Both the position numbers and the translations under genes were made by a program. 64,000 nucleotides of DNA from Aminobacter sp. HY435 (GTDB taxonomy: Bacteria; Pseudomonadota; Alphaproteobacteria; Rhizobiales; Rhizobiaceae): positions 186,001-250,000 of the forward strand of contig NZ_JANKZL010000011.1 in NCBI RefSeq assembly GCF_027568395.1, written 5' to 3'. How positions within the stretch are numbered: position 1 is the first letter of the stretch; every line of letters starts with the position of its first letter. Shown here in pieces: positions 25,572-28,314 of the stretch. Under the pieces are notes generated by a model, which did no database searches, was not told the DNA's origin, and saw nothing but the letters and a program-made list of their open reading frames with translations.

Positions 25572-26192
25572 CTATTTCACAATGACCTTGGCGCCGACAT
25601 CGACGCGGTTGTGGAGATCGATGATGTCCTGGTTCATCAGGCGGATGCAGCCTGACGACATGGCCTTGCCGATCGAGTTCCATTCCGGCGTGCCGTGCAG
25701 GCGATAGCCGGTGTCGCCGCCCTTGTTGTAGAGGTACAGGGCACGGGCGCCGAGGGCGTTCTTGGGGCCGCCGGGCATGCCGCCCGACCACTTGGCGAGT
25801 TCCGGCTGGCGCTTGACCATCGCCGGCGGCGGGGTCCACACCGGCCATTCGCGCTTCATGGCGATGCGGGCCGTTCCCTGCCACTCGAAACCCTCGCGGC
25901 CAACGCCGATACCGTAGCGGATCGCCTTGCCGTCGGGCTGGACCAGGTACAGGAATTTCTGCCCGGTATCGACAACCACGGTGCCGGGCTGCTCGTTGGT
26001 CTCGTAGCGCACGACCTGGCGCTGATACTGGCGCGGCACCTTGCTGATCGGAATGGCCGGCAGCTGATAGCCTGCATCGACGCGCGCGCCATAGTCGTTG
26101 GAGAACATGCGCGACACACCATCGGTCGAGCAGCCCGCCAGTGCGGTGGAAAGCGCCAGGGCAGCGGCGATGGCAAAGGACTTCAATTGCAT
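25572..26192 (-). CDS. L,D-transpeptidase (YkuD domain) lipoprotein
   Basis: A 206-residue cell-wall cross-linking enzyme that makes 3-3 bonds in peptidoglycan or attaches proteins. It has a lipoprotein signal ending in the lipobox LAGC (MQLKSFAIAAALALSTALAGCSTDG). The YkuD catalytic motif is HGTPEWNSIGKAMSSGCIRL followed by MNQD, with Cys as nucleophile. I chose the internal ATG at 26192 because it puts the signal peptide at the start; an ATG at 26216 adds eight residues. It converges with nfu. About 500 bases upstream are free of recognised genes apart from the islet signals. Confidence 0.92.
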   Translation of the reverse strand: MQLKSFAIAAALALSTALAGCSTDGVSRMFSNDYGARVDAGYQLPAIPISKVPRQYQRQVVRYETNEQPGTVVVDTGQKFLYLVQPDGKAIRYGIGVGREGFEWQGTARIAMKREWPVWTPPPAMVKRQPELAKWSGGMPGGPKNALGARALYLYNKGGDTGYRLHGTPEWNSIGKAMSSGCIRLMNQDIIDLHNRVDVGAKVIVK

Positions 26193-26462
26193 GCTGTGTT
26201 CCCAAACAAGAGCCATGACCGGACCGATTCGGCCTCATTTTCGCCACCATTCTTACCGGGCAGGGGTTTTGCTTGCCAAGCCTCGCGTGTCCGTTAAGCC
26301 GCGTCCGGGTTAATGTAAGGGACGGGTTATGGCATTTCGGCAACACGCATGGCGGGAAAAATCAATGGATTCAACGGTAGGCGGCAAGAGCGGATTTTGG
26401 CCGCGCGCGGGAACTACTGCTGACGGGAACGTGTCTGGAATAGTCCAGCGGTCGACTTCGGG

Positions 26463-26497
26463 TTGACAAAATCAACGAACATAGGACTACAGTCCTA
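26463..26497 (+). promoter_or_regulatory. Orphan promoter-like signal with TAGGACT-AC-AGTCCTA palindrome
   Basis: TTGACA at 26463 is followed by the palindrome TAGGACTACAGTCCTA at 26482-26497. The core GACT-NN-AGTC resembles the C-box bound by controller proteins of restriction-modification systems, but no such gene is present. No open frame of its own lies between it and the antitoxin gene 190 bases downstream, so it may be a distal promoter of that operon or a relic. Confidence 0.35.
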
Positions 26498-26615
26498 GAA
26501 CCGGTTTGTTTGCCGTCCGCGGACGGTGAACCTCACCACATTCGGAAAAGCTACCCGTAAGTCGTCAAATGGCCGCACTTCGGGTTGAAACGCTAGTCGT
26601 AGAACATTTTTCTAA

Positions 26616-26659
26616 TTGACAAGCCGGTAAAGATAGTAGCTACGCTTAGCGTAGCTACT
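26616..26659 (+). promoter_or_regulatory. Promoter and 11-3-11 palindromic operator of the toxin-antitoxin operon
   Basis: A TTGACA -35 box lies at 26616-26621. It is followed by a perfect inverted repeat: AGTAGCTACGC (26635-26645), loop TTA, GCGTAGCTACT (26649-26659). The palindrome occupies the expected -10/start region, 30 bases before the start codon, so a protein bound there would block transcription. This is the usual layout of autoregulated type II toxin-antitoxin operons. It could also fold as an RNA hairpin in the leader. Confidence 0.6.
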
Positions 26660-26688
26660 GCAAAAAAGGTGACTGATTGGAGAATTTT

Positions 26689-27252
26689 ATGCTACTCGCT
26701 GGTTTTGATGTAAGCAAGGCTGCGGAAGCCGTCGCGTATTTGGCATTGAAGTCCGGCGGCAGCATCAACGTCCTTAAGCTCTCAAAACTTGTGTACCTTG
26801 CGGAACGTGAATTTATGGCTCGCTACGACGAGCCGATGTTTTATGACACGCTCGTATCGATGCCGGACGGCCCCGTTGCGTCGATCACGCTCAATCTGAT
26901 CAACGGGAACCTAGAGGATGAACGTTGGTCGAAGTTCGTGGCCAAGCGAGATAGCTTTGACATTAAGGTAGTTGCGGGCACGAAGCCTGAAGGCTTGAAG
27001 CATCTCAGTAAAGCAGACGTCAAAGTGCTGGAGGCTCTTTGGGAAAAGTTCGGCAAACTCGACAAGTACGCCTTGCGAGATTGGACCCACAAAAAAGAGA
27101 ACCTTCCGGAGTGGCAAGATCCGAATGGGTCGTCACGCCCCATTCATCACGAGGACGTTTTTCGGTATCTGAAAAAGGACGACAGCTTGTCGCTGTCTGA
27201 GGAAGTCCACGAATACCGTCGCCTTCACCAATACCTCAACGCCGCCAAATGA
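26689..27252 (+). CDS. Panacea-domain (SocA-like, DUF4065) putative antitoxin
   Basis: A 187-residue protein with the Panacea/DUF4065 pattern. KAAEAVAYLALKSGGSINVLKLSKLVYLAE is described here as the N-terminal helix and KLSKLVYLAEREFMARY core; DEPMFYDTLVSMPDGPVAS follows. Panacea domains are a promiscuous antitoxin family that neutralises many unrelated toxins; SocA of Caulobacter belongs to it. The start is ATG 26689, because GGAG at 26679-26682 is correctly spaced; a TTG at 26677 would lie on that site. It overlaps the next gene by four bases (ATGA), has low GC for this window, and sits behind a palindromic operator. The antitoxin role is inferred from family and context. Confidence 0.78.
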   Translation: MLLAGFDVSKAAEAVAYLALKSGGSINVLKLSKLVYLAEREFMARYDEPMFYDTLVSMPDGPVASITLNLINGNLEDERWSKFVAKRDSFDIKVVAGTKPEGLKHLSKADVKVLEALWEKFGKLDKYALRDWTHKKENLPEWQDPNGSSRPIHHEDVFRYLKKDDSLSLSEEVHEYRRLHQYLNAAK

Positions 27253-27638
27253 GTTACATCCCCCACAAAGGGGGAACTTTGCTCGTTCCGTCCGGACCGG
27301 TCGGGATGCACCTGTTTGTGATCGTTACTAACCAATGCCAAAATGGGTTTCACCTGTTGGTATCACTTACATCCATCAAACCCGGCAAAGCGCATGATCC
27401 AACGTGCACGTTCAACGGTGGTGAGCATCCTTTCATCGACAAGCCGACTTACGTATATTATAGGCTTGCCGAACAACGAAGCAGCGCTTCGATTGTAAAA
27501 GCTGTAGACGCAGGGCTTTTCGTCCCTAGAGTAGACATGCTGGAGGGGCATTTAGCAGCGATCTGCTCTGGTATCGAACAGTCCGAATTCATTGGAAGTT
27601 GGGCGATCGAATACTATCAGGAAAACCGTAACAATTAG
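27249..27638 (+). CDS. Putative toxin of the Panacea pair (MazF/PemK-like fold suspected)
   Basis: A 129-residue protein with no signal peptide or membrane segment. Visible patterns are GGTLLVPSGPVGMHLFVIVTN, LLVSLTSIKPGKAHDPTC, and GEHPFIDKPTYVYYRLAE. The opening beta strands (GTLLVPSG then LFVIVTN) and small size recall SH3-like PemK/MazF toxins. I recall uncharacterised proteins with the same C...GEHPFI...YVYY motif, but no experiment. It starts within the antitoxin stop codon (ATGA), so the two are translationally coupled. Antitoxin-first order is usual for type II modules. Function is inference; an alternative is an accessory protein of unknown role. Confidence 0.6.
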   Translation: MSYIPHKGGTLLVPSGPVGMHLFVIVTNQCQNGFHLLVSLTSIKPGKAHDPTCTFNGGEHPFIDKPTYVYYRLAEQRSSASIVKAVDAGLFVPRVDMLEGHLAAICSGIEQSEFIGSWAIEYYQENRNN

Positions 27639-27746
27639 CGTTGTTCCCTTCGCTGCAACGGTTCTTTGCCTGCTTGCTGGGACAGTCTCGAACGCAGGCC
27701 CAACAAGCGGGTTCAAAACGTGAACAAACCATGCGATGATCGCCAG

Positions 27747-28247
27747 ATGCCGATCATTTCGCCGCTTGCCCAGAACCCTCTCATTGACGGTCGCCAATCC
27801 GAACGCGCCATGCTGGTGCGGCGTGGCGTGCAGCGTCTGCTGATGCAGATGGGAGCGCATGTGCTGCCGGAGATTTCGCTGGCGACGGGCCGCCGCGCCG
27901 ACCTTGTGGCGATGACACGCCAGGGCGACATCTGGATCATCGAGATCAAGTCCTCGATCGAGGACTTCCGCGTCGACCGAAAATGGCCCGACTACCGGCT
28001 GCATTCGGACCGTTTCTTCTTCGCCACGCACCCTGAAGTGCCGGCCGAGATCTTCCCTGAGGAGTGCGGCTTCATTCTCTCCGATGGTTATGGCGCCGAG
28101 ATCATGCGCGAGGCCCCTGAGCACCGCATGGCGGCAGCCACCCGCAAGGCACTGATGCTGCGCATCGCGCGCGCCGGAGCGGCACGCCTTCTGGCGGCCG
28201 AACTCGCGGGCGTTTCGGTGCCGGCGCTGGAAGGGGAAAGCGAATAG
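27747..28247 (+). CDS. mmcB: MmcB family DNA repair protein
   Basis: A 166-residue protein of the MmcB family, a predicted nuclease of the PD-(D/E)XK type. The core reads ATGRRADLVAMTRQGDIWIIEIKSS, with the Asp and EIK forming the nuclease-like motif, followed by DFRVDRKWPDYRLHSDRFFF. In Caulobacter, MmcB takes part in DNA damage repair with ImuB-dependent mutagenesis-related functions. The start is placed at ATG 27747 (MPIISPLAQNP); a GTG at 27720 is possible. It belongs to the GC-rich backbone and ends at a terminator shared with the convergent actR. Confidence 0.83.
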   Translation: MPIISPLAQNPLIDGRQSERAMLVRRGVQRLLMQMGAHVLPEISLATGRRADLVAMTRQGDIWIIEIKSSIEDFRVDRKWPDYRLHSDRFFFATHPEVPAEIFPEECGFILSDGYGAEIMREAPEHRMAAATRKALMLRIARAGAARLLAAELAGVSVPALEGESE

Positions 28248-28259
28248 GAATGGCAGAAC

Positions 28260-28290
28260 GAAAAACGGCGCCTGAAGATCAGGCGCCGTC
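28260..28290 (-). terminator. Intrinsic terminator between mmcB and actR
   Basis: ACGGCGCCTGA (28265-28275) pairs perfectly with TCAGGCGCCGT (28279-28289) around a three-base loop. On the minus strand it is followed by TTTT (complement of 28261-28264), so it terminates actR; it may also slow the convergent mmcB transcript. Confidence 0.85.
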
Positions 28291-28314
28291 CATTGTTCGC
28301 CACTCGTTATTCGA

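Follow-up and report, generated by a model that had tools for sequence, protein, structure and literature searches.

In a 64,000-nucleotide stretch of the Aminobacter sp. HY435 genome (positions 186,001 to 250,000 of contig NZ_JANKZL010000011.1, here called the window), two overlapping genes, referred to as panA and panT, probably form a type II toxin-antitoxin (TA) module of the PanAT kind. PanA would bind and block PanT, a small protein predicted to have the MazF/PemK fold. Free PanT would most likely cut RNA and thereby stop translation, and its active site would contain an invariant His, where MazF has Arg, and a Ser/Thr. Both the TA assignment and the MazF fold are supported because the PanT model has a toxin fold and a Panacea gene lies upstream of PanT in 66 of 69 family members. 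The published systems with which the module is compared (PMC8832971, PMC10440598, PMC7556043 and PMC8086154) are cited throughout from excerpts of those papers.

The panA gene (26689 to 27252, + strand) runs from ATG 26689 to TGA 27252 and encodes 187 residues; a GGAG six bases 5' of the ATG (26679 to 26682, + strand) is its likely ribosome-binding site. The panT gene (27249 to 27638, + strand) runs from ATG 27249 to TAG 27638, encodes 129 residues and is joined to panA by an ATGA overlap. The G+C content was 52% for panA and 49% for panT, against 65% for the whole window. An earlier preliminary description of this DNA had reported two overlapping genes, richer in AT than the DNA around them and placed between backbone genes, and all of this was borne out. 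On one side lies mmcB (PF06319, E 3.8e-72 in Pfam), and on the other a gene at 25572 to 26216 (- strand) whose DNA was conserved beside mmcB in 9/9 other genomes of the genus. The same description had recognised a Panacea/DUF4065 core and an antitoxin family in the first protein, correctly: PanA matched a single Pfam family, SocA_Panacea (PF13274), at residues 31 to 137 (E 7.9e-18; 65.9 bits against a cut-off of 25.7), and carried the core KLSKLVYLAEREFM. It also matched phrog_1281 (E 8.5e-24). Its AlphaFold2 model, built with 34 sequences, had a predicted local distance difference test score (pLDDT) of 96.4, no N-terminal extension and a C-terminal helix at residues 166 to 186. We describe PanA as a putative stand-alone Panacea antitoxin. 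A Panacea domain was found in 11/11 antitoxins of the first set, the window's included.

Since published stand-alone Panacea proteins neutralize their toxins directly (PMC10440598), PanA, by analogy, likely does so by direct binding. It might instead work in the manner of SocA in a type VI system, by handing the toxin over to ClpXP as an adaptor. Panacea is the domain that PanA has in common with SocA, and the host, like Caulobacter, from which SocAB is known, is an alphaproteobacterium; however, PanA reached only 15.9 bits with the SocA equivalog model of NCBIfam, against a cut-off of 190, and the PanAs tested in Escherichia coli need neither ClpXP nor Lon (PMC8832971). We consider the adaptor mode very unlikely and retain direct binding as the likely mode of PanA. 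A search of the Panacea profile against PDB sequences gave no match at E up to 1 with 11 rows; with 34 rows it gave a DnaB-like helicase at E 0.069, which was not taken as meaningful. No Panacea structure was thus present among these search results, and panT could serve as a partner in tests of how a single antitoxin domain recognizes toxins that are unrelated to each other.

The linkage of PanT to Panacea was examined across the PanT family. A tblastn search with PanT found 8 phage records and 5 plasmid records (among these 13, the near-duplicates H3, H4 and H11 were left out of closer inspection). With the window's own genome counted each time, PanT was found in 4/199 genomes of the same family (one of them, L014, unconfirmed), in 5/385 genomes of a class sample and in 12/398 genomes of a phylum sample. 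Pattern searches from a four-row alignment gave 32 genome loci and 88 viral loci, of which 80 were kept; the genome loci reached Chlorobiaceae, Chroococcus, Calothrix, Acidobacteriaceae, Synergistaceae and others. Pattern scans with PanT as a single protein found no relative in genome or viral contigs, those with the two proteins of phage Sirocco found none in viral contigs, and the L141 protein matched only itself. Nor did tblastn with divergent members reveal further carriers among plasmids or phages. After L014 (a 33-residue first-look match unconfirmed by the profile) and L015 (the window again) were dropped, loci L001 to L142 gave 69 non-redundant clusters at 90% identity, the window included.

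Panacea lay directly upstream on the same strand in 66/69 clusters. The searches used the partner only, and therefore this linkage was not built in. Among the remaining three, one had an adjacent Panacea gene on the opposite strand, and two lay near contig ends without Panacea: in L048 the contig starts about 218 bases before the gene, and in L140, at a contig end, the upstream DNA was not recognized as panA. The gap between panA and panT ranged from -59 to +71 bases, with profile-based starts that make the extremes rough, and was -4 in 23/66 clusters. Many redundant viral loci start with the first base of the partner gene, so that no neighbor can be seen; in four further viral loci (L143 to L146), panA was upstream in 4/4. 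Homologues of PanT therefore seldom occur without Panacea, in keeping with the pairing proposed in the preliminary description. A reverse search with the Sirocco PanA in one genus found a PanT-family partner for 3/3 Panacea genes. Panacea without a PanT-family partner was seen in phage PhiR5_2 and in genome G937, as expected because partners are swapped within Panacea clades (PMC8832971). In Escherichia phage PhiR5_2 (L211, 2531 to 3055), no PanT-family partner was present in the 5.5 kb around the Panacea gene. Panacea occurred in 2/10 genomes of the genus, at this locus and elsewhere in G937, where the profile found no PanT-family partner in the 3.3 kb around it.

Some individual loci departed from the usual arrangement. 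L059 (1642 to 2644, a Calothrix contig) differs from the other linked loci in that its partner and Panacea genes, although neighbors, lie on opposite strands. The partner gene is interrupted in L013 by an internal stop and in L060 by a split frame, each still beside a panA frame, and in L044 (3561 to 3920) a shortened panA frame stands next to a full-length partner frame. The partner is unannotated in the feature tables of phage Sirocco (L006, 1486 to 1881) and of a Phaeobacter plasmid (L009, 2462 to 2869), the latter table being incomplete.

PanT itself had no match in Pfam, NCBIfam or PADLOC and fell in phrog_19071, a family of unknown function (E 6.4e-15). Its AlphaFold2 model had a pLDDT of 96.0, and the best matches of this model among solved structures, using Foldseek and VIA-align, were the MazF, Kid and CcdB toxins, with the predicted fold shared with MazF/PemK/Kid over about 100 residues. 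The 50 matches listed by Foldseek were MazF-type by title, among which we counted YdcE, MoxT and the Mu50 toxin on the assumption that they are of this type. The model thus supports an SH3-like MazF/PemK fold for PanT. The preliminary description had proposed a toxin, perhaps with this fold. For the fold, as modeled, and for the linkage to Panacea, the proposal stood, the structure comparison having returned toxin folds rather than a non-toxin one, and PanT is a putative toxin. PanT was not filed in PF02452 because both a profile match and the catalytic Arg were looked for and found to be absent.

Several sequence comparisons were uninformative. The PanT-family profile matched no PDB sequence at E up to 10 with 11 rows, and with 39 rows it matched two unrelated dehydrogenases at E 1.6. 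The only NCBIfam match among 11 members, to LL-diaminopimelate aminotransferase in a single one of them (E 0.0021), was taken as chance, and phrog_1925, matched by 8/39 members, was set aside because it matched 0/299 genomes and 0/14 controls. The window's genome has one match to the CcdB family (C25, 323649 to 323909) and none to the PemK family.

The alignment with PemK used 21 sequences (30 loci fetched, 25 considered), and that with CcdB used 18 (20 loci fetched); loci with shortened flanks were skipped in both. In the global PanT-PemK alignment, which is weak (E 0.006), His21 (codon 27309 to 27311, + strand) fell on the column of the PemK catalytic Arg at the start of strand 2 (R in 19 of 21 sequences, H in the other two). 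Leu22 fell on the PemK Pro (20/21), and Thr41 (codon 27369 to 27371, + strand) on the catalytic Thr at the end of strand 3 (18/21). The strand order of the PanT model agrees with the placement of His21 on Arg. The MazF of Klebsiella pneumoniae needs Arg28 and Thr51 (PMC8086154), which we read, from the RP and ITS motifs, as the same columns. Conservation was counted over 67 of the 69 members, the window included, with the fragments L013 and L060 dropped. His21 was conserved in all 67, Leu22 in 65, Asp50 in 65, Cys53 in 63, His60 in 65, Ser/Thr67 in 67 and Tyr71 in 66, together with Gly108 (65/66) and Ser112 (65/65). The Thr41 column held S in 37, T in 22, C in 4 and A in 2 of the 67.

Provided that the weak alignment holds, the catalytic Arg has been replaced by an invariant His, and the chemistry or the target of PanT may therefore differ from that of MazF/PemK. 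We did not meet this His-for-Arg change in the open-licence PMC literature, in which no search was aimed at it directly. It is conceivable, although we lean against it, that PanT represents a Panacea-devoted MazF-fold family in which the Arg-based ribonuclease (RNase) center was rebuilt around the invariant His with Asp50, His60, Ser/Thr67 and Tyr71; the outcome would be a His-based RNase of new cleavage specificity or a toxin with another target. Should the change be functional, the MazF scaffold would support more than one catalytic solution; the 67 usable members suffice for predicting the residues that stand in for the MazF active site.

A validated toxin is probably a relative of PanT. 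The PanAT pair of Pseudomonas moraviensis was among those characterized by Kurata et al. in 2022; its toxin (WP_083201923.1) is neutralized by and copurified with its PanA and specifically blocks protein synthesis (PMC8832971). The N-terminal sequence MIFSEQKVAQ added to that PanA (PMC8832971) equals the VIFSEQKVAQ of the PanA of Sirocco, a Pseudomonas phage, in nine of ten residues, and the partner in phage Sirocco is a PanT homologue (40.5% over PanT residues 1 to 74). Because of this match between the antitoxins, we think that the P. moraviensis toxin probably belongs to the PanT family.

Several points weigh against PanT being an RNA-cutting toxin of the MazF type. PF02452 missed PanT in Pfam, and in a scan of family members it matched 1/39 (E 0.0086), a level also reached by chance-type matches in that scan such as ICMT (5/39). 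The profile-profile match between the PanT family and PemK was E 0.02 in local and E 0.006 in global mode, in a single comparison. The Foldseek E values were modest, with 3 matches at E <=0.001, and CcdB, which is not an RNase, shares the fold and tied with MazF in Z score. None of the 67 members has an Arg at positions 21 to 24. The probable membership of the P. moraviensis toxin is drawn from ten antitoxin residues only, with partner swapping known, and that toxin also weakly depolarizes the membrane, an effect that its authors considered indirect (PMC8832971). PanT could be the MazF-fold toxin of a PanAT pair without being an RNase, acting on another target such as DNA gyrase, as CcdB does, or through a chemistry of Asp50, Cys53, His60 and Tyr71. 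The invariant His and the conserved D-x2-C ... G-D/E-H-x-F ... S-Y-V-x-Y motif would fit such a toxin, as would the CcdB structures and the failure of PF02452 to recognize the family. On the other hand, the listed Foldseek matches are MazF-type by title, the CcdB profile (PF01845) did not align with the PanT family (hhalign E 0.4), His also occupies the Arg column in the two PemK members noted above, and the probable relative in P. moraviensis specifically blocks protein synthesis. We consider a non-RNase toxin unlikely and favor RNA cutting by PanT.

The module is absent from the corresponding site in related genomes. mmcB was present in 10/10 genomes of the genus, the window's own included, and blastn of 25572 to 28300 against the mmcB loci of the other nine showed homology to the window that stops between 26349 and 26451 and restarts between 27700 and 27709. 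At most some tens of bases lie between the homologous flanks at these empty sites. The closest alignments place the end of the left flank at about CCAGC (26445 to 26449) and the start of the right flank at about 27700. From these borders, a segment of about 1.25 kb (26450 to 27704, good to a few bases), missing from 9/9 other genomes, has been inserted here. Its G+C content is 51%, panA and panT are the only genes recognized in it, and no clear terminal repeats or target duplication were seen at its borders in the flank alignment. The module was acquired horizontally, by an insertion that postdates the split of this genome from the relatives sampled. With nine empty sites to compare it with, it provides a clean and compact case of a Panacea module that moves as one unit.

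Many other carriers of PanT are phages or prophages in which the pair is placed as cargo. The panA-panT pair moves as one unit, carried by phages, plasmids or small insertions, and it entered this chromosome between two backbone genes; it may serve in phage defense or addiction. The cargo position also fits a pair that is not a TA module at all, acting for example in regulation or counter-defense, with a MazF fold that only binds RNA or protein, and 8/25 PanTs tested by Kurata et al. were nontoxic in E. coli (PMC8832971). However, the gene order, the overlap, the toxin fold and the near-exclusive pairing with Panacea are those of validated PanAT modules, and we find a non-TA cargo pair very unlikely compared with a TA module. 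At the right border, the mmcB frame opens at TTG 27666, within inserted DNA (27666 to 27749 of the window). The relatives match this frame only from residue 12 to 15 onward, with a stop inside the matched stretch, and ATG 27747 is the more likely start of mmcB.

Upstream of panA, a TTGACA at 26616 to 26621 (+ strand), a possible -35 box, is present as the preliminary description had stated. No matching -10 box was found by a consensus scan, which detected 0 full sigma-70 promoters in 26300 to 27800 (1.2 expected by chance). The perfect 11-3-11 palindrome that had been noted there was confirmed, and the same element is better written as 12-1-12, AGTAGCTACGCT-T-AGCGTAGCTACT at 26635 to 26659, with arms 100% complementary. 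This candidate operator overlaps the position expected for the -10 box behind TTGACA 26616. Arms of equal length arose in 0/60 shuffles of the panA upstream region, and the 23-base core, with the middle three bases free and up to 3 mismatches allowed, occurred once in the 4.6-Mb genome. A palindrome or operator shared across the family was rejected because only 8/82 family upstream regions had an inverted repeat matched or beaten by at most 3/60 shuffles, with about 4 expected by chance. PanA might repress its own operon through the palindrome; against it, the PanA model lacks an N-terminal extension, the palindrome is not shared across the family, and autoregulation by Panacea itself is considered improbable by Ernits et al. 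(PMC10440598).

The idea in the preliminary description that the partner may be an undescribed type of toxin did not hold, since Panacea with MazF/PemK-like toxins has been published (PMC8832971; PMC7556043). Kurata et al. described 88 toxin clusters with Panacea, of which two PemK/MazF-like ones were validated, those of the P. moraviensis and B. ruminantium pairs (PMC8832971); as in the pair described here, a Panacea antitoxin is joined in them to a MazF-fold protein unmatched in domain databases. The excerpts of that paper do not mention an active-site substitution in the P. moraviensis PanT. A DUF4065/MazF-like pair had been proposed in 2020 for p23/p24 of Serratia phage vB_SspS_OS31 (MT843276), where the DUF4065 gene overlaps a gene assigned to MazF by HHpred (98.94%, the authors' figure; PMC7556043). 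OS31 p24 weakly matched the PanT-family profile (20.2 bits; E 2.5e-5 at a database size of 1000) and, like the PanT family, keeps the DHxFxxHDSYV stretch; unlike PanT, it has 164 residues, and it appears to be a distant member. MazF/PemK is among the common folds of the TA network of Ernits et al. in 2023 (PMC10440598). By description, TD3 of Acinetobacter guerrae from that study resembles PanT in being an mRNA-interferase fold unplaced by sequence search, but its antitoxin is an AAA ATPase. MazF/PemK/Kid proteins (PF02452) share the predicted fold and the aligned active-site Thr with PanT, whereas they have a catalytic Arg in place of its invariant His and show no profile match, and PanT is paired with Panacea. 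CcdB, in contrast to PanT, has a different antitoxin and no profile similarity to it. The locus adds a member to a class of modules that was known before and does not define a new type, and its new and interesting part may lie in the altered active site.
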